Part shown: piece after piece, positions 3,288 through 20,093 of the stretch
Layout of the letters: the number at the start of each line of letters is the position of its first letter
Numbering within the stretch: position 1 is the first letter of the stretch
Source: a virus
Virus record (IMG/VR): IMGVR_UViG_3300017744_000212
Coordinates: 1-20,093 of that record
Length of the DNA: 20,093 nucleotides
Direction: 5' to 3' (one strand)
Notes under the pieces: generated by a model
Seen by the model: only the letters and a program-made list of their open reading frames with translations
Told to the model about the DNA's origin: nothing
Database searches by the model: none
Translations under genes and position numbers: made by a program

Positions 3288-4037
3288 ATGGCTGTATTAT
3301 CAAAAGGAACTACTTACTCTGACGGCGGAACAGTTACGTCAAGCAATCTAAATGCATTAGTGGATAGTGCTACATTCGTAGCAGGTGCTACGGACAGTTC
3401 ATCTACGACATTATCTGGCGGTGCTATTATCGTAAAAGACTTAGGTATTAGTACAGCTAAGTTAGCAAACACTTCTGTTACGACAGCAAAACTAGCGGCA
3501 AATTCTGTTACTTTGGCAAAGCTTGCTACTCAAGCGGATCAGACTGTACTGGCTAATGTATCTGGCGGCACAGCAGTACCAACAGCAGCCACTATTGTTG
3601 GAGACATACTACTAGATGAAAGTTCATTTAGCTCTAATTCTGCAACCAAAGGTGCTACGCAGCAGTCAATTAAGTCATATATAGCTAATTATGCGCTTAC
3701 TCATAGCGGTGCTACGGGTACTTTTAGTTCTAGTACAAGTTATGCTGATTTAAACTTATCATCAGTCGTTGGAACTAATCGCGCTATGGTTATCATGGAA
3801 GTATATGATGCCAATGGTGCTTCTGCTATTTCATTCCGAACAAACGGATCTACCCTTTCCGTAGCAAACGCTGATGGTAGCACGGCAAACGGAAGCTCTA
3901 CAGTAAAACTAGATACTAGCGACAACGGCGGAACTATTGTTGTTGTAACGGATACTGGAGGGATTGTTGAGCATAAAGCTGACGCTTCTATTTCTGGAGT
4001 TAAATATACTATTCAGGCGTATCAAAGACTTCTCTAA
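3288..4037 (+). CDS. Tail fibre / appendage-like virion protein
   Basis: A 249-residue protein. Residues about 55-85 hold tandem AKLA units (ISTAKLANTSVTTAKLAANS, then VTLAKLA), a feature of phage fibres in which short helical or beta repeats build a trimeric shaft. The middle is Ser/Thr/Gly-rich. The C-terminal 100 residues (MVIMEVYDANGASAISFRT through VKYTIQAYQRLL) look like a compact beta-sandwich tip domain. It is Ser/Thr/Ala-rich throughout with no cysteine. The start lies five bases after the preceding stop, and the following gene starts three bases after this one ends, so it is part of the structural operon. Receptor binding is likely but not shown. A neck-attached decoration protein is the main alternative. 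Confidence 0.7.
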   Translation: MAVLSKGTTYSDGGTVTSSNLNALVDSATFVAGATDSSSTTLSGGAIIVKDLGISTAKLANTSVTTAKLAANSVTLAKLATQADQTVLANVSGGTAVPTAATIVGDILLDESSFSSNSATKGATQQSIKSYIANYALTHSGATGTFSSSTSYADLNLSSVVGTNRAMVIMEVYDANGASAISFRTNGSTLSVANADGSTANGSSTVKLDTSDNGGTIVVVTDTGGIVEHKADASISGVKYTIQAYQRLL

Positions 4038-7000: not shown

Positions 7001-8063
7001 GTTTGCTGAAGGCGTACGTGGTCTTGATCCGACATCTCAGGCATTACTAGGTCGTCAGACCGAACTAGCTAATCGTTTATACGATGAGGCTGCTGGTGGT
7101 TTGTCACCTGAGCGTAGCATGGATGCTGCGGAAGCCGCATTTGCTTCCCGTGCAGCGCAAGGTCGCTCTCGCGATGAAAGTTACGGAGCTGCTAATATCT
7201 TAAACCGAGAAGGATTTAGGCAACAAGCAGAGCAACGAGCGCAACAAGCTGGTGCTAGAGGCTTTGATATGAGCCGTGCTATGAGCCAAAACATACCTTC
7301 TATGCTATTAGGTCAATCCAGCTCAGGAGTTGGTGCTATTAGTCCAGTATTTAGTGCTGCGGATGCTGCTAATCTTTCGTTCCAGAACTATACACAGCAA
7401 CAGAATTTTGCCGCCCAAGAACGTGCTAGAGAAGTTTATACTCAACAGTTCAATCGAGCTGCGGAACAAAATGATCTAAGCGGGATGGAGCAAGCTGCAA
7501 ATGTTCTTAATCAAATAAATCAAGGATTCGGTGTAGCAGAACAAGGAGTTGACTTTCTAAAAAATCTTCCTAGTAATGTAGAAACAATAATTGATGCTGG
7601 AAAAGATGCTGTTGGTTCTATATTCGGAGGAGACGATACTGATGCTACGCCAGTAGGAGATTTATCATTCAATGACTTTAATGCAAATACTGGAGGTCTT
7701 AACCTAAATCAACCTTCTACGCCATTGACTACTGGCTTTGAAACGGTTCAGAGCGGTGCATCAGGAGGAGGATTTGGTCAATACGGAGGTGGTTCTTTTG
7801 GTCAAGAAGTATTAGGGAGCGGTTCAAGCACGCAACTAACTACTGGCTTTGAAGGATTAGATAACTTGCAGAACATCAATGAGGTTTTATCACTTCTTAA
7901 TCCAACAATAACTGGTGCTGAGGGATACATTAATCCTTATGATAGCTATGGTGCAGATGATGTATTTAACAACTCTGGTAGTGCTAATCTTACTGGATTC
8001 TTAGGTCAACCAGTATCAAGCCAAGGTAGTTACTTTGGAAGTAATTCTTTATCACTATTTTAA
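4041..8063 (+). CDS. Giant internal virion / ejection-like protein (1340 aa)
   Basis: Residues 1-310 are very acidic and probably disordered (long Glu/Asp runs, for example around 235-290). About 340-730 is a mixed helical region. Residues 768-793 are a Pro-Val-Ala/Thr repeat. About 910-1170 is helical and rich in Ala, Gln and Arg (AAFASRAAQGRSRDESYGAA, then NILNREGFRQQAEQRAQQAG), and the C-terminus is Gly/Ser-rich. No enzymatic motif was found. Size, composition and position after the tail genes suggest a DNA-ejection or internal core protein, analogous to T7 gp14-16 or P22 gp7/16/20. A short motif, VLPDFEVT, occurs at 292-299 and 755-762, with a weaker form near 814-820. LTTGFE occurs at 1229-1234 and 1266-1271, with TTGFE at 821-825. 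Three bases separate its ATG from the previous stop. The functional assignment is inferred from context. Confidence 0.65.
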   Translation: MAITSSQFEVIAEEAGLSVEELQEAIDNNELVLDEDNLSLSLPDGTPYLDDIPVEPSTPYEARFDPENEAYDPTDYQELIRQHKRASNAKRRHLQALDKGDYDLAESQRLKYEEARLAYDAADKRPDSDSFDDEPRPWQPIEKVEAPSREDERVVYSRGSFETDEDFAFNDAVNNHIDGLYDEIANIEDEDEYNDAADRLEDYLDSNAFDNEMQSLYGDDSDDNDLLSGSYNDYIDSLNQEDTTGVVTEEETVTEEPEEEETVEEDLVLTEEDDEVLSEIEDEVQEDDDVFVLPDFEVTADRLTDEERELEELGEKLSETSTDVPLTPIDMGDPLVDAFPENAFTDVLQEKPFDQSKIDEISNRFKGTRFDFNRWLASNPQTQEGLSSLVREFITPEGIIDITKKDLFFDKLANYLTEGGLNDLNAFQGSVAFLEGLTNSNLIDVPFAGTAISNLYDKIITPETQAKVQDFLPSDKTKAALGLASALTGVGGEAMLGLSLIDTLTSDDPAFATTAGTIADTLFSDPTLSRAVQEGLPPAQQQQREQLADFYEAFGFERGGDLITTTLSDEYNPLTGQYESPADPSVLNSLKEIASRTGQTIEGVLDTIGFEGSKLFGSKLNQAILSSLTGNPASGIIAGGITDILTPTGQDLSDYLYGRGIDPTQLSPSDISYFRGDGGFDENLASQYYNPVTNTYDLPEDFYSSQDPILNRIISGELSFTDALGEIGSNTLGGLGLDTGSNTGESYIDSDGTLVLPDFEVTTQLDNPAPPVAPVTPVTPVAPPVAPPVAPVTNTSTDTIDIFDVNIDDNIFDLGEFSVTTTGFEPREPESPLPNLGIFPAYENEGGTGIFTGTETFIGDPSDDVVIFTPEIPTTETNQDITTQPVDGSGTINTNTMATPAQEGAGYDPAYELAKLLVGAEAAETFRGKGLASGDLQSLVNQYQSNVEQASFDRSAALIGSDQDLRNRLRSGQRASDVALLGDQGQAFAEGVRGLDPTSQALLGRQTELANRLYDEAAGGLSPERSMDAAEAAFASRAAQGRSRDESYGAANILNREGFRQQAEQRAQQAGARGFDMSRAMSQNIPSMLLGQSSSGVGAISPVFSAADAANLSFQNYTQQQNFAAQERAREVYTQQFNRAAEQNDLSGMEQAANVLNQINQGFGVAEQGVDFLKNLPSNVETIIDAGKDAVGSIFGGDDTDATPVGDLSFNDFNANTGGLNLNQPSTPLTTGFETVQSGASGGGFGQYGGGSFGQEVLGSGSSTQLTTGFEGLDNLQNINEVLSLLNPTITGAEGYINPYDSYGADDVFNNSGSANLTGFLGQPVSSQGSYFGSNSLSLF
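4914..4937 (+). repeat. VLPDFEVT linear motif, copy 1
   Basis: Residues 292-299 of the 1340-residue protein, at the end of the acidic region. A second, amino-acid-identical copy is at 6303-6326. Seven of the eight codons differ between copies, all at synonymous positions, which points to selection on the peptide and not recent DNA duplication. Confidence 0.85.
6303..6326 (+). repeat. VLPDFEVT linear motif, copy 2
   Basis: Residues 755-762 of the 1340-residue protein, just before the proline-rich repeat. Identical in protein to the copy at 4914-4937. A looser third version, DLGEFSVTT, follows at residues 813-821, on the far side of the proline-rich linker. Confidence 0.85.
6342..6419 (+). repeat. 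Pro-Val-Ala/Thr tandem repeat
   Basis: Degenerate CCxGTAxCx tandem units encode residues 768-793 of the 1340-residue protein (P-V-A-P, V-T-P, V-A-P-P). It is probably an extended flexible linker between two parts of the protein. The near-repetitive DNA could change length by slippage. Confidence 0.8.
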
Positions 8064-15970: not shown

Positions 15971-16549
15971 TTAACTTAGTTTTATTTTTTGGTTATTCTT
16001 AGCTTCAATGACGTTGTTCATTTTAGCGGTTGATGATGGAATCTTCTTCCAAAGTGTAGCAAGCTCTTCCATGCTATTGCATTTATCAATTGCCTCGATA
16101 GCTTGTTGAGCGGGCATAGCCGCTTCTTTAGGTCTTTCAGCCTTACCATGAGTGTTGATAGCATCAGCATCTTTCTCATTGTCGATAGCAAATAAGTTAC
16201 CCAATGCTCGCTTGAGGCTGTAAGATGCGGTAGATCCAGAGATCTGAGCTGAATCCATTCCTTTCTTGGACTCACTATGCATAGCCCAATGTTCTGCGCT
16301 GATAGCATCATCTGACTCGCAATCAAGTAATTGCGCGGTGGTCACGTTAAACATGAAAGTTCCACGCATTTCAATACGATCAGTACATACAAGTGTTACT
16401 GACTGCTCCAGCATGATAGGCTTTAACGCCTCTAGTATATCTTCGGCACTACGATAGTTGTATTTTCCGAACGAGTTCCTTTGTCCCTTTGGAGCTTTTA
16501 GCTCGCTCTGGATAAAAAGAAGTTTTTGTTTTATATTAATTTGTGTCAT
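15971..16549 (-). CDS. erf: Erf-family single-strand annealing recombination protein
   Basis: A 192-residue protein with the two conserved Erf blocks: FGKYNYRSAEDILEALKP (27-44) and AQISGSTASYSLKRALGNLF with AIDNEKDAD (101-129). Erf proteins bind single-stranded DNA and promote annealing of complementary strands, helping genome circularisation and recombination-dependent replication. The C-terminal part (about 135-192) is variable and basic. The gene overlaps the endonuclease VII gene by 14 bases and is followed by the SSB-like gene, so an annealing protein, a strand binder and a junction resolvase would be made from one mRNA. The N-terminal Met lies close to the usual family start. Confidence 0.92.
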   Translation of the reverse strand: MTQINIKQKLLFIQSELKAPKGQRNSFGKYNYRSAEDILEALKPIMLEQSVTLVCTDRIEMRGTFMFNVTTAQLLDCESDDAISAEHWAMHSESKKGMDSAQISGSTASYSLKRALGNLFAIDNEKDADAINTHGKAERPKEAAMPAQQAIEAIDKCNSMEELATLWKKIPSSTAKMNNVIEAKNNQKIKLS

Positions 16550-16985
16550 TTTTTATGGATTGTTTATATAGTTCAGTTCTATCTTTTGCATTGTCACATC
16601 GCATAATACAGTCCATATCGAAACCAATGTCAAGTAAAATCTTTATTTGTTCTGATTTTTTTTTGACTGCAAATCGTTTGTACAATTGCCTGAATCCAAC
16701 TGGGTGTAGTACGTCTAGGTTTTCTCTTTCAAGATACAATGCCATAGCACGGAGAATAGAAGGATATTTATCTGGACTGGTGCTACATCTTGTCTTGAGA
16801 AAGTTCTCTAGTTTACCCAGCAAACTGTTGCCGACTCTAGATATTACGCCACGTACCATTCCAGTCTGGTGGTCGTGGTCAAGTACCCAATCGTTAGTCT
16901 TTTGTTTAGTAATCGGACAAACGCCAGTCTTGGGTTTGTTCCTTTCTCTAAACTGTTTTATTAAACTCTGCGGCAAGTAAGTCAT
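16536..16985 (-). CDS. Endonuclease VII-like Holliday junction resolvase
   Basis: A 149-residue protein. The active-site block is LDHDHQTGMVRGVISRVGNS (residues 35-54; D36, H37, D38, H39 and N53), matching the His-Me finger core of T4 endonuclease VII (gp49). This family cleaves branched DNA before and during packaging. The zinc-binding cysteines usually flanking the core are mostly missing: only C23 remains of the first pair (CPIT) and the second pair is replaced (ISRV). The C-terminal half (about 70-149) is basic and helical. Start and stop overlap its neighbours (ATGA at 16982-16985). Confidence 0.85.
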   Translation of the reverse strand: MTYLPQSLIKQFRERNKPKTGVCPITKQKTNDWVLDHDHQTGMVRGVISRVGNSLLGKLENFLKTRCSTSPDKYPSILRAMALYLERENLDVLHPVGFRQLYKRFAVKKKSEQIKILLDIGFDMDCIMRCDNAKDRTELYKQSIKNDTN

Positions 16986-17176
16986 TTTATTTTTTCTATG
17001 TTTAGTATTTGTCCAGATCCACCACGTTTAAAGCGACATCTACCGTCCTTCTCTGGTGCTACTTTTAGCAAAAGACGAATAGCATCCTTTTCATTATGCG
17101 CCCATTTTATGGCGGCACTTGTGTTGCTTTCTGGCGGCAAATCATCGTGCCGAAAGGTTATGTAGTATTGATTCAT
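16982..17176 (-). CDS. Conserved-looking small protein (64 aa)
   Basis: A 64-residue protein (MNQYYITFRHDDLPPESNTS, then AAIKWAHNEKDAIRLLL). It looks like a small alpha/beta fold with a central helix (SAAIKWAHNEKDAIRLLL) and a C-terminal RGG-containing loop. It is joined to both neighbours by ATGA overlaps (16982-16985 and 17173-17176), which supports it as a real gene. Function unknown. Confidence 0.7.
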   Translation of the reverse strand: MNQYYITFRHDDLPPESNTSAAIKWAHNEKDAIRLLLKVAPEKDGRCRFKRGGSGQILNIEKIK

Positions 17177-17418
17177 TGGTATATAACTGTGAAGCCCTCG
17201 CCACCCATGACTGGTATGACATTGAAATCAATCCACTCATAGGCTTCATCGGCAGTCATGCCTTGCTTCTCGAATGCCTCAATCATTTTATTGTGGTCAT
17301 AAAGCAAAAAACCCCTGTGGTCAACGCCAACTACCGCATCATCCAGTCCGTCAAAGCGGATAGCTTCAGGGTCAGCCCATTCTAGGTAATCATCAAGTTT
17401 TGGGTTATTTAAGTACAT
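17173..17418 (-). CDS. Conserved phage protein of unknown function (81 aa)
   Basis: An 81-residue acidic protein with a strongly patterned body: DYLEWADPEAIRFDGLDDAV, then VGVDHRGFLLYDHNKMIEAF, GMTADEAYEWIDFNV and GGEGFTVIYQ. From memory, proteins with GVDHxGxLxY...GMTxxEAxEWIDxNV occur in many phages without known function. It begins 24 bases after the 100-residue gene and overlaps the next by ATGA. The high conservation of such a small acidic protein suggests an interaction partner, host or phage, but none can be named. Confidence 0.75.
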   Translation of the reverse strand: MYLNNPKLDDYLEWADPEAIRFDGLDDAVVGVDHRGFLLYDHNKMIEAFEKQGMTADEAYEWIDFNVIPVMGGEGFTVIYQ

Positions 17419-17442
17419 AATTACATTATTAATATTATTGAT

Positions 17443-17745
17443 TCATTTACCTTTTTCTAAATGTTTTTTAACCTTTTTAACTCGATCAATAAGTGTGCTT
17501 TTAGAAATATCATAGTCAACTGCTATGTCATCCCAGCACTCACCTCTACGTTTTCTTGCCATAGCATCCAAGGTAATACCTATGTGCTGATCCAGTCTTA
17601 AAGGAGTTCTTCCACTTACTTTTCTTTTCTCCTCGTTTGCATTGTCAACGGCTTCAATAGCTTCTGCCTCTGCCATGATTTTTTTCATCTTGGACTGCAA
17701 GCCGTTAAAATAATTTACTGCGTCTGAATACATATTGTTACTCAT
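17443..17745 (-). CDS. Helix-turn-helix protein (100 aa)
   Basis: A 100-residue protein. Residues about 55-97 form a helix-turn-helix-like segment (MARKRRGECWDDIAVDYDIS, then KSTLIDRVKKVKKHL) resembling sigma-4 or resolvase-type HTH units (WxxIAxxYxISxxTxxxRVK). The N-terminal half is a charged helix (MKKIMAEAEAIEAVDNANEE). It is probably a small DNA-binding regulator, or a terminase-small-subunit-like DNA binder; the sequence does not decide. A clear GGAGG lies seven bases before the ATG, and the gene overlaps the upstream stop by 4 bases. Confidence 0.65.
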   Translation of the reverse strand: MSNNMYSDAVNYFNGLQSKMKKIMAEAEAIEAVDNANEEKRKVSGRTPLRLDQHIGITLDAMARKRRGECWDDIAVDYDISKSTLIDRVKKVKKHLEKGK

Positions 17746-17987
17746 AATGATACCTCCATTTCTTCGTCTAATGATTTTTCTTCTGCTATTTTTAATTTAA
17801 CTTCTTGGTGAATAAGATCCACCTTTATGCGTGCTAGATCATTTAACACTTGTACCCAATCATCCGAAGTTTTACCACTTGCGGTATTACTATCTGACTG
17901 TTCTGCTTTTACTAAGCATGATGAAACTGCTAACATTGCCGATTCAGCAAGATCAATAGTTAATATTTTTTTAATTACTTTGTTCAT
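17742..17987 (-). CDS. Hypothetical protein (81 aa)
   Basis: An 81-residue protein, mostly helical (IKKILTIDLAESAMLAVSSC, and DLARIKVDLIHQEVKLKIAE) with an acidic end. The C-terminal helix has a heptad-like pattern, so it may form a coiled coil and bind a partner. There is no recognised family, signal peptide or catalytic motif. It is coupled to the HTH gene by a 4-base overlap and follows the nuclease gene by one base, which supports a real gene in the operon. Confidence 0.55.
   Translation of the reverse strand: MNKVIKKILTIDLAESAMLAVSSCLVKAEQSDSNTASGKTSDDWVQVLNDLARIKVDLIHQEVKLKIAEEKSLDEEMEVSL
17753..17757 (-). promoter_or_regulatory. Strong Shine-Dalgarno site (GGAGG)
   Basis: GGAGG on the minus strand lies seven bases before the ATG at 17745. 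It falls inside the last codons of the upstream 81-residue gene. It is one of few clear ribosome sites in the leftward block, so this gene may be translated strongly. Confidence 0.75.
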
Positions 17988-17988
17988 T

Positions 17989-18807
17989 TTATATATGTTT
18001 GTTTAATAGGTTGTATTGAAAATAAAAATCCCTTGCGGCTTTTGCCATAGAGATGCCTCGATCTTTCATCATGTTAGACCATTTCTTTGGATAAACATTA
18101 CCAGTAACATTACAAACACATACTGAGTAAATGTCTGGAATAAAACCAAGATCTTCTATATTGTTTAGCATATCTGCTTCGATAGCAAGCTGATAACAAT
18201 CGCTGTCATAAAACTTTCCTCTGTTCTTTGCCGAACAATCACGAAACTTGTAATCAAACAATGCTATTCTGGAATCAACAACAGCTATGAGGTCAAGCCT
18301 GCCTGCTATTTTCATTTTGTCACAAGCAATTAATCGCTCTGTTTCTATTGGCTTTATGTTATTGTCCATAAAGTAATCCAATATGGGATAAGCAAAAGTG
18401 TCGTAAGGACTTTCATCAAGTTCTTCATCATTGATTTTCTTATCAAACAAATCGTATATGTCGCCCTTGAAGCTAGGAATTAATTCCTTAATCCAGATGT
18501 TAGCCAGATCCTCTATACGTCCATGCGCCCTAGTTCCGAAATCCCTACTAGGAATAGCATCGCCTGTCTCTGGACATTTAGGTAAGCCCCACATGAGTTC
18601 ATTTATTTCTTCATACGTAGCATCTGGATTATTACCCTTAAGTTCAATAGCTTTTTTAACACGCCATGTTTCAATAAATGGATTAGGTATGGCTTTTAAG
18701 ATTGTTGTAACGCTTGGATACATCCAAGGCATTTCTCTAATCTTTGTTACAGTTTCTATTTCTGACAACTTGGGGTTATCTTTGTCTGAATAATCATATA
18801 TATGCAT
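17989..18807 (-). CDS. PD-(D/E)XK nuclease (RecB/Cas4-like phage exonuclease)
   Basis: A 272-residue protein. The N-terminus contains MYPSVTTILKAIP (29-41), common in phage exonucleases of this kind. GTRAHGRIEDL (91-101) supplies the helix before the core; IETERLI (154-160), GRLDLIAVVD (169-178, D172) and FDYKFRD (184-190, D185 and K187) are the metal-binding motifs, and YQLAIEA (205-211) is the trailing Gln helix. These residues fit the RecB-like branch. It would resect DNA ends to give single strands for the Erf protein, as lambda Exo does for Beta. The start overlaps the previous stop (TAATG) and has a strong AGGAGG seven bases upstream. Confidence 0.88.
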   Translation of the reverse strand: MHIYDYSDKDNPKLSEIETVTKIREMPWMYPSVTTILKAIPNPFIETWRVKKAIELKGNNPDATYEEINELMWGLPKCPETGDAIPSRDFGTRAHGRIEDLANIWIKELIPSFKGDIYDLFDKKINDEELDESPYDTFAYPILDYFMDNNIKPIETERLIACDKMKIAGRLDLIAVVDSRIALFDYKFRDCSAKNRGKFYDSDCYQLAIEADMLNNIEDLGFIPDIYSVCVCNVTGNVYPKKWSNMMKDRGISMAKAARDFYFQYNLLNKHI

Positions 18808-19085
18808 TATAATTCCTCCTCGTCTTCCTTTATTTGTACTAAACGGACTGTTTTACCAGTAAAATCGCATTTTGTTTTTCCTACTTCTTCAAGTAAACCT
18901 GCTTTTATAAGTTCAGTTATTCTAGGTCGCACTTGGTTCATCTCAAAATACTCAAGTTTGTTTAAAACCTGTCTATCCGTCCAAGGTCTTGAACACATTG
19001 AAAACAATATGAATATGTGTTTTGCCCTTTTGGACAATTTAAGTTTATCTTCCTTGTAAGCCTTTATAGAGTTTTCGTGTATCAT
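18807..19085 (-). CDS. Winged-helix DNA-binding protein (92 aa)
   Basis: A 92-residue protein whose centre fits a winged helix: AKHIFILFSMCSRPWTDRQV (helix), LNKLEYFEMNQVRPRITELI (recognition helix with RPRITEL), then KAGLLEEVGKTKCDFTGKTV RLVQI (beta wing). This pattern, wHTH followed by GLLEEVGK..D..TGK, is familiar from small phage regulators. The Glu-rich C-terminus (KEDEEEL) carries the ribosome site of the next gene in its codons. It may act on early promoters such as the repeats at 19755-19931, which is inference. Confidence 0.7.
   Translation of the reverse strand: MIHENSIKAYKEDKLKLSKRAKHIFILFSMCSRPWTDRQVLNKLEYFEMNQVRPRITELIKAGLLEEVGKTKCDFTGKTVRLVQIKEDEEEL
18815..18820 (-). promoter_or_regulatory. 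Strong Shine-Dalgarno site (AGGAGG)
   Basis: AGGAGG on the minus strand, seven bases before the ATG at 18807 of the PD-(D/E)XK nuclease. It lies within the Glu codons at the end of the winged-helix gene. It fixes the nuclease start at the TAATG overlap. Confidence 0.8.
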
Positions 19086-19093
19086 AATATTAT

Positions 19094-19285
19094 TTAATTA
19101 GGGGTTATTTCGTCTTCGATAGCCCATTCAATGGTATCCCATGAGATCCCATAATTAGCATCGTGTTTTCTTTCAACATGATCGAGTACATTTTTAACCT
19201 GTTCATCGGTTAATGTAACACCCATAGCTTCGGCTTGATGACGGACATCTTCGTGATTCCATACAATTGCGATTTCGTATTTCAT
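19094..19285 (-). CDS. Conserved-looking small protein (63 aa)
   Basis: A 63-residue acidic protein, with VWNHEDVRHQAEAMGVTLTD, then EQVKNVLDHVERKHDANYGI and SWDTIEWAIED. Small phage proteins with this W/H...DV..QA...LT...VL..ER+HDA..GI.WDTI layout are common from memory; their role is unknown. It fits tightly between the initiator-like gene (12-base gap) and the winged-helix gene (8-base gap). Confidence 0.7.
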   Translation of the reverse strand: MKYEIAIVWNHEDVRHQAEAMGVTLTDEQVKNVLDHVERKHDANYGISWDTIEWAIEDEITPN

Positions 19286-19297
19286 ATTATTTATTTG

Positions 19298-19741
19298 TTA
19301 GTGGTTAGTATGATTAGAATTACTGTCTCTCAAATCGTTTATGTCAACAGTTAAATTTTGTTTATTATTATATTTATTTATTTTATTATTATTATTAACT
19401 GGTATTGGTTTTCCCATCTTGGAAAATCGGTAGATGATTTCGTCACACGGTCTGTACCACTTTGTTCGGTCATAATTTTTCTTGTTATAACTCCCAACAA
19501 CGATAGCACCTTGCTTCTCCAATGACTTCATTGTGATCCATACCTGCTTGCCTGTAATGAATGGTAAAGCTTTTGATATAACAGAGGCAGATCCATACGT
19601 CCAGTAATGCCCATCCTTCTTGTTTTTATCATTCTCCCTATTCTTTAGCCACCAAAATATAATGTACTCAAGTAATATAGCTTCTCTGATGCCGTATTTG
19701 ATAGCGTACCGCTCGCCAAAATGTATCTTTCTGTTGCTCAT
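19298..19741 (-). CDS. Winged-helix replication initiator-like protein (147 aa)
   Basis: A 147-residue protein. Residues about 15-95 resemble the N-terminal winged helix of phage replication proteins (EAILLEYIIFWWLKNRENDK, YGSASVISKALPFITGKQVW, SLEKQGAIVVGS, TKWYRPCDEIIYRFS): a helix with Trp-Trp, a recognition helix that starts ITGKQVW and a wing. An Asn/Lys/Tyr-rich low-complexity linker follows (about 114-128), then a short polar tail. A lambda O or DnaD-like initiator or helicase loader is the best guess; a repressor is an alternative. It is the first full gene of the leftward block. Its ATG lies only 13 bases downstream of a 24-bp repeat, leaving little room for a leader. Confidence 0.6.
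   Translation of the reverse strand: MSNRKIHFGERYAIKYGIREAILLEYIIFWWLKNRENDKNKKDGHYWTYGSASVISKALPFITGKQVWITMKSLEKQGAIVVGSYNKKNYDRTKWYRPCDEIIYRFSKMGKPIPVNNNNKINKYNNKQNLTVDINDLRDSNSNHTNH
19352..19397. other. Very AT-rich tract in the initiator-like gene (candidate DNA-unwinding element)
   Basis: About 46 bp made almost only of A and T, in short TTA/TTTA repeats. It encodes the Asn-rich linker of the initiator-like protein. Phage initiators such as lambda O often carry their own origin in their coding sequence, with an AT-rich melting region nearby. No clear set of iterons was found here, so origin function is only a candidate. Confidence 0.35.
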
Positions 19742-19754
19742 TGTTAAATATCGC

Positions 19755-19778
19755 TACTGGTAAACTGCCAGTTGTCAA
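19755..19778 (-). promoter_or_regulatory. 24-bp repeat, gene-proximal copy (promoter/operator-like)
   Basis: Identical to 19908-19931. On the minus strand it begins TTGACA, a perfect -35 hexamer, followed directly by the 17-bp dyad ACTGG-N7-CCAGT. A TATTTA lies 22 bases after TTGACA. With normal 16-17 base spacing the -10 would be weak (TAGCGA or AGCGAT), and transcription would begin at or just before the ATG at 19741. This copy may therefore be an operator, or give a leaderless mRNA. Confidence 0.6.
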
Positions 19779-19805
19779 TGTATTTATTTTATAAAATGAA
19801 TACAT
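19778..19805. promoter_or_regulatory. 28-bp near-perfect AT-rich palindrome
   Basis: ATGTATT, one mismatched position, then the self-complementary ATTTTATAAAAT, one position, and AATACAT when read on the minus strand: 13 of 14 base pairs match about a centre between 19791 and 19792. It abuts the gene-proximal 24-bp repeat. A dimeric repressor site, an AT-rich upstream element or a cruciform would fit. Confidence 0.7.
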
Positions 19806-19809
19806 AGAT

Positions 19810-19843
19810 AAAAAAAGAGCCACCCCGTACGAGATGACTCTTT
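19810..19843 (-). terminator. Rho-independent terminator, leftward
   Basis: In minus-strand RNA, AAAGAGUCAUCUC pairs with GGGGUGGCUCUUU over a GUAC tetraloop: 13 uninterrupted pairs, three of them G-U, followed by a run of seven U (19816-19810). In plus-strand RNA the three wobble positions would be A-C mismatches, so leftward function is favoured. It lies between the two 24-bp repeats. Confidence 0.85.
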
Positions 19844-19897
19844 AATATGAACAATAATATAACGATAACAATTAGAATACTTACGAGAAGCAATCTA
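19810..19897 (-). ncRNA. Candidate short RNA or attenuated leader
   Basis: If the distal repeat at 19908-19931 acts as a leftward promoter, transcripts starting at about 19890-19897 would reach the strong terminator after about 80-90 nt. No ORF of useful length lies within. UCUCGUA at 19888-19882 duplicates the terminator's left arm and loop and could pair with UACGGGG of the terminator, a possible antiterminator pairing. No expression evidence is available. Confidence 0.35.
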
Positions 19898-19907
19898 TTT
19901 ATAACCG

Positions 19908-19931
19908 TACTGGTAAACTGCCAGTTGTCAA
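19908..19931 (-). promoter_or_regulatory. 24-bp repeat, distal copy (promoter/operator-like)
   Basis: Second identical copy, 153 bp from the first. On the minus strand it begins TTGACA, then has the dyad ACTGG-N7-CCAGT. TATAAA lies 22 bases after TTGACA, the same offset as TATTTA in the other copy; with 16-base spacing the -10 would be TACGGT. It starts four bases after the stop of the upstream gene and faces the terminator at 19810-19843. Confidence 0.65.
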
Positions 19932-19934
19932 GAC

Positions 19935-20093
19935 CTATAACAAATAAAATTCAAGATTATTTTCTGGTAAATCATTGAGCTTTGGATCGAGATAGCCACC
20001 CTTGATCAAATCGTTAGTCTCTGAAAGACACATAGCATTCCAGATGACAGCACCCAGATGATCCTCCGAAGTATCATTAGACATATAAGCCCA
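19935..20093 (-). CDS. C-terminal fragment, possible dATP/dGTP diphosphohydrolase-like (DUF5664-type)
   Basis: An open minus-strand frame runs from the window edge for 52 codons to a TAG at 19937-19935. It reads WAYMSNDTSEDHLGAVIWNA, then MCLSETNDLIKGG and YLDPKLNDLPENN. The order of an acidic segment, then HLGAVIWNAMCLSE, then a D...LND end recalls the C-terminal part of phage dATP/dGTP pyrophosphohydrolases (H-x3-A-x-W/C-N...L.E). These alter nucleotide pools in favour of phage synthesis. The N-terminal catalytic part lies outside the window, so the family call is tentative; an all-alpha MazG-like protein is an alternative. Confidence 0.5.
   Translation of the reverse strand, partial: WAYMSNDTSEDHLGAVIWNAMCLSETNDLIKGGYLDPKLNDLPENNLEFYLL

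Follow-up and report, generated by a model that had tools for sequence, protein, structure and literature searches.

Twin 24-bp repeats of an uncultured phage are probably part of an iteron-like array at a replication initiator locus

The stretch of DNA analysed here (the window) is a virus contig of 20,093 bases, with its end falling within the next leftward gene. The gene rep (19298-19741, minus strand) encodes a replication initiation/DnaD-like winged-helix protein of 147 aa, which we propose as the binder of the repeats described below. Its ATG (19741-19739) is backed by N-terminal alignment with relatives. It is the first gene of an operon containing replication initiation, exonuclease, endonuclease VII, Erf-like, polymerase-exonuclease, and DnaB-like genes, and the replication initiator, exonuclease, Erf-like, and DnaB-like genes fit the label "early-type" that a first-pass annotation had given to this leftward operon. 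Upstream of rep is the 3' part of a dATP/dGTP diphosphohydrolase-N-like gene (19935-20093, minus strand), which is complete in L003 (3573-3962). L003 is a second IMG/VR contig that is 97.9% identical to window positions 16369-20093 and extends 6.2 kb beyond them.

Two 24-bp copies with the plus-strand sequence TACTGGTAAACTGCCAGTTGTCAA lie in this region, both on the minus strand. Copy 1 (19755-19778), at the rep promoter, consists of TTGACA (19773-19778) and a 16-bp iteron-like repeat, CTGGCAGTTTACCAGT (19756-19771). Copy 2 (19908-19931) has TTGACA at 19926-19931 and the 16-bp repeat at 19909-19924, and lies 3 bp past the stop codon of the diphosphohydrolase-like gene. As had been described, both copies are exact and are 153 bp apart from start to start. 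With up to three mismatches allowed, TTGACA plus the dyad is expected by chance 0.11 times per window; both copies have 0 mismatches. The leftward intrinsic terminator that the copies were said to bracket was confirmed at 19814-19843 (minus strand, 13-bp stem and T run). A near-perfect, AT-rich palindrome of 26 bp, TGTATTYATTTTATAAAATGAATACA (19779-19804, no strand assigned), abuts the TTGACA of copy 1, and a palindrome like it is found between the repeats in three related contigs (L019, L026, and L028). The DNA between copy 2 and the terminator was tested as a small RNA, and its fold z of -5.9 came largely from the terminator hairpin; this candidate had no match in Rfam. Downstream of copy 2 on the minus strand (approximately 19795-19893), a frame that starts with TTG and encodes about 33 hydrophobic residues runs through the terminator; its start is about 38 bp from TTGACA. 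This frame may be due to chance in T-rich DNA. Most genes of the window are without a Shine-Dalgarno sequence and have A-rich leaders.

Results from L003 showed that the window pair belongs to a larger set. The 16-bp core, ACTGGTAAACTGCCAG, has five exact copies in this contig in a single orientation. Those at 3394 and 3547 are the window pair, and those at 3972, 4001, and 4034 are past the window's end, upstream of the diphosphohydrolase-like gene. Besides these five, no copy with up to three mismatches was found in L003. At least five identical sites, all oriented as rep, are thus in the control region between rep and a divergent moxR-like/VWA operon. At the three outer copies, TTGACA is not attached to the core as it is in the window pair. 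The minimal repeat is the 16-bp core and not the 24-bp unit. Copies 1 and 2 have the repeat 4 bp closer to TTGACA than it is at the TTGACA of the diphosphohydrolase-like gene (L003:3993-3998), which shows that the two elements can be separated. A search of IMG/VR with a 23-bp motif matched L003 only. The 16-bp core has one exact copy in each of six other IMG/VR contigs, in unrelated contexts, and we take these matches as chance. A DNA-level search of phage records with window positions 17500-20093 gave no match.

The roughly 50-bp stretch surrounding copies 1 and 2 is 76% alike, so segmental duplication is likely for this pair. The same likeness might suggest that no protein binds the repeats and that they are selfish elements or duplication debris, with a promoter segment having been copied when the diphosphohydrolase-like gene arrived. 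We consider this very improbable because 16-24 bp stayed identical while the flanks diverged, because three further copies have different flanks, and because repeats occur at this position in relatives too, with spacing that is unrelated. The diphosphohydrolase-like gene is located elsewhere among the replication genes in two related loci (L020 and L029) and in phage C75C1, so in the phage studied here it has apparently been inserted between the repeats and rep.

The position of TTGACA relative to the genes is informative about promoter structure. In all 10 loci of the related phage group, TTGAC is 34-38 bp 5' of the rep ATG. Among 142 control ORFs (other ORFs of at least 80 aa from these loci), a single one has TTGAC at that distance, and this is the diphosphohydrolase-like gene of L003. 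The TTGACA elements at copies 1 and 3 are 36-37 bp ahead of start codons (36 bp for the diphosphohydrolase-like gene). TTGACA is thus a promoter element distinct from the repeat. The conserved distance from TTGAC to ATG fits an ordinary spacer of 16-18 bp, a weak -10 element, and almost no leader, from which we infer nearly leaderless transcripts. The TTGACA copies were not among the hits of a sigma-70 scan, their -10 being poor. Ahead of terS (L003:7873-7911), TTGACT is 36 bp from an in-frame TTG at 7909, and terS may share this layout.

The first-pass annotation had read the locus as a promoter with a 22-bp spacer, the hexamers being realigned by a protein bound in the spacer, and had put forward a 92-aa winged-helix protein as a possible binder. 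TATWWA boxes are indeed present 22 nt after TTGACA in both window copies (TATTTA and TATAAA). However, with the -10 of copy 1 at 19745-19750, RNA would start at approximately 19738, which is beyond the rep ATG, so an over-long -35/-10 spacer of the MerR-like kind with its RNA start before the gene is not what is found here. The offset is kept neither at the third TTGACA copy, before the diphosphohydrolase-like gene, nor in relatives, and the 92-aa protein was not found in relatives. We give this model next to no credence. What stands from the earlier reading is that repeats of a protein-binding type are at an early promoter; the 22-nt spacer and the proposed binder do not.

We compared the locus with those of relatives, obtained from two overlapping scans with Rep alignments (80 loci each), from which ten distinct loci were retained by layout. 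In these, VWA and moxR-like genes are divergent from rep, and exonuclease follows rep where the contig reaches. Upstream of rep, all ten have 2-5 direct repeats, which without exception are on the rep strand, and the repeat sequence differs from lineage to lineage. The repeats are of the TAGGCGGTTCGTTGAG type in L019 (three copies), CTACGGCAGATTCAACCGAAA in L020 (three copies), of the GGCGGTTTACCGGGTAA type in L026, AGGCTGATTCAACCGA in L029 (two copies), of the AGGCGGTATAATATTG type in L031, of the TCGGCAGTCGAACCTAA type in L035 and L036 (three copies), and of the ACGGCAGTTCAACTCAAAA type in L112 (two copies). L027 has two copies of TCGGCAGTTCGATGGGTA upstream of rep and another on the same strand within rep at +119; this last copy matches at 17/18 bases and is remote from any promoter. 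Copies are often 23-24 bp apart, close to two helical turns, with such pairs in L019, L020, L026, L027, and L112, and distances in the phage studied here are 29, 33, 425, and 153 bp, which is irregular for iterons. The rep gene in L019 (4078-4440), and also in L026 and L028, ends with ...SDKKLVP and the conserved MG[KR]PIP tail resumes in another frame, which is a truncation or frameshift common to the three contigs.

The repeat score was above that of all 200 dinucleotide shuffles in nine of the ten loci, the exception being L031, and the minimum score of the clade (14) was reached by 1 of 119 other, non-clade rep-type upstream regions. Distinct repeat copies differ by 20% within genomes versus 48% between them. 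Several near-identical direct repeats in one orientation thus lie beside the initiator gene. A shared core, GGC[AG]G[TA]T, is visible across lineages, although it was derived after the fact. When a leave-one-out profile built from the other lineages was run on L003, the window's copies were not among its top 7 sites, so the window repeat is tied to the others by position, orientation, and gene context more than by sequence. The equivalent gene of relatives has comparable repeats upstream of it, but not the identical motif. The dyad emphasised by the earlier annotation (CTGG-N7-CCAG) is present in the window's repeat but is a trait of this lineage and not of the group. As for a possible AT-rich unwinding region, in 5 of the 10 loci no 100-bp stretch is less stable than one located in the 700 bp upstream of rep; the least stable stretch there ranks within the lowest 1-2% in three loci, including L003, and at 5-6% in L019 and L026. 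Phage C75C1 has a rep relative, and repeats were not found within 900 bp upstream of it. A literature search for this phage by name found no relevant paper.

The moxR-like and VWA-type gene pair beyond the repeats (L003:4380-7221) has a differing base composition and is flanked on either side by dyads of the TTGCATNAAATTGCA type (L003:4120-4180 and 7671-7721). The pair had no Pfam match, and a host search with the moxR-like protein among one genome each from 84,980 species found no relative. The end of the L003 contig (9898-9963) resembles an Illumina TruSeq adapter and would thus be an assembly artefact.

Among PHROG families, Rep has matches to those for replication initiation and DnaD-like proteins. 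AF2 models it as a winged helix (mean pLDDT 78.8, core >90), and the top VIA matches to this model were the RepA initiators 4PQL (Z 9.6) and 4PT7 (Z 9.5), on a level with generic winged-helix proteins at Z 9.3 and below. A profile search of PDB sequences with Rep returned nothing. By family matches and predicted fold, the gene neighbouring the repeats codes for a replication initiator that carries a DNA-binding winged helix. Rep is also the sole DNA-binding candidate common to all relatives. For the 92-aa protein (18807-19085) and the 100-aa protein (17443-17745), both suggested earlier, no relatives were detected in phages with analogous repeats, among which L026 and L027 extend too little downstream of rep to be fully informative. 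We think that the direct repeats are most likely bound by Rep. A partial Mantel test of Rep against the repeats detected no co-variation specific to Rep once general divergence was accounted for (r = -0.02). In the recognition helix, the column of Rep residue 72 separates CGGC from WGGC repeats; we set it aside because four other columns separate them just as well.

The absence of Rep-specific co-variation would also suit a different arrangement, in which the repeats are operators of a separate early-gene repressor or activator, coordinate the rep and diphosphohydrolase-like promoters, and have no role at an origin. Dyads such as CTGG-N7-CCAG are typical of dimeric regulators, and the repeat of the phage studied here contains this one. 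The repeats of L019, L026, and L027 are just upstream of TTGAC, a position at which activators bind, and copies 1 and 3 overlap promoters. Yet no other shared DNA-binding gene was found near the locus, the 92-aa and 100-aa proteins having been found in no relative. Operators would less naturally include a copy within rep, as in L027, or a cluster of three copies, and the repeats of most other lineages have no clear dyad. We therefore regard a separate regulator as a possible but clearly less probable explanation than binding by Rep.

On balance, we lean toward the idea that the twin copies are part of an iteron-like array of the rep locus that is probably bound by Rep and would serve autoregulation, origin function, or both. 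In this proposal, the winged-helix Rep would bind the 16-bp direct repeats upstream of rep, with copy 1 as the site at the rep promoter and copy 3 as the site at the promoter of the diphosphohydrolase-like gene. Rep on these two copies would cover the stretch from TTGACA to the start codon and thus would shut off transcription. Simple occlusion is not general because the nearest repeat is upstream of TTGAC in L019, L026, and L027. The clustered copies would act as a loading platform that seeds replication.

The 3' end of rep contains a second conserved element (window 19375-19434). It consists of a TTTTCC-N6-GGAAAA dyad (19409-19426), CCWATACC, and AT-rich DNA, with GGTATTGGT at 19401-19409, and a second copy precedes terS (L003:7893-7918). 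The rep 3' element is conserved throughout the clade and in phage C75C1, most members also have the terS copy, and within a genome the two copies tend to agree in sequence. This raises the alternative that the origin is the rep 3' element, as with oriL in gene 38 of SPP1, and that the upstream repeats are only for autoregulation of rep; the AT-rich DNA after the element and the second copy before terS, which recalls the origin pair of SPP1 (PMC6316719), are in keeping with this. We consider it unlikely since the element also encodes a conserved KPIP tail, so that its conservation is partly at the protein level, and since the overlap of the terS copy with a promoter points to transcription control. 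These placements of the origin are not exclusive, and both keep the repeats as an array of the initiator locus. It is also conceivable, though again unlikely, that there are two linked recognition systems, with lineage-specific iterons at the nearly leaderless rep promoter and a dyad pair linking the 3' end of rep with the terminase (late) promoter, which together would make up a switch from replication to packaging. If this is true, the initiator or a partner would govern both replication and late transcription.

Arrangements of this kind are already known; the present one occurs throughout a group of uncultured phages and does not constitute a new promoter class. It offers a concrete origin/operator candidate and a likely initiator for this group, as well as a set of naturally occurring initiator-repeat pairs that could be used to work out the recognition code of small winged-helix phage initiators. 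As a comparison, RepA_N plasmid initiators of Staphylococcus aureus bind iterons. The predicted fold of Rep resembles the N-terminal winged helix of those of pSK41 and pTZ2162 (4PT7, 4PQL, 4PTA, and 5KBJ; Z 8.4-9.6), a likeness that is tied with unrelated winged helices; unlike them, Rep is short, has no recognised RepA_N C-terminal domain, and has no PDB profile match. In the Vibrio cholerae PLE, binding of a DnaD-like RepA to semi-palindromic direct-repeat iterons (three repeats of about 30 bp) is established, and both binding and replication have been demonstrated (PMC7145576; PMC8263062). By contrast, the cores here are 16 bp and irregularly spaced, and their binding and role in replication are putative. 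What is common to both is a DnaD-like winged-helix initiator and a phage or phage-related element, and in both the repeats are direct, semi-palindromic, and sited in non-coding control DNA. SPP1 has one origin within its initiator gene (oriL in gene 38) and another elsewhere (oriR) (PMC6316719). The oriL repeats are inside gene 38, whereas the array described here precedes rep, and the element within rep has a different sequence. As with gp38 and oriL/oriR of SPP1, the locus combines a putative phage origin-binding protein with direct repeats and AT-rich DNA, one site being in the gene and one elsewhere (PMC6316719).
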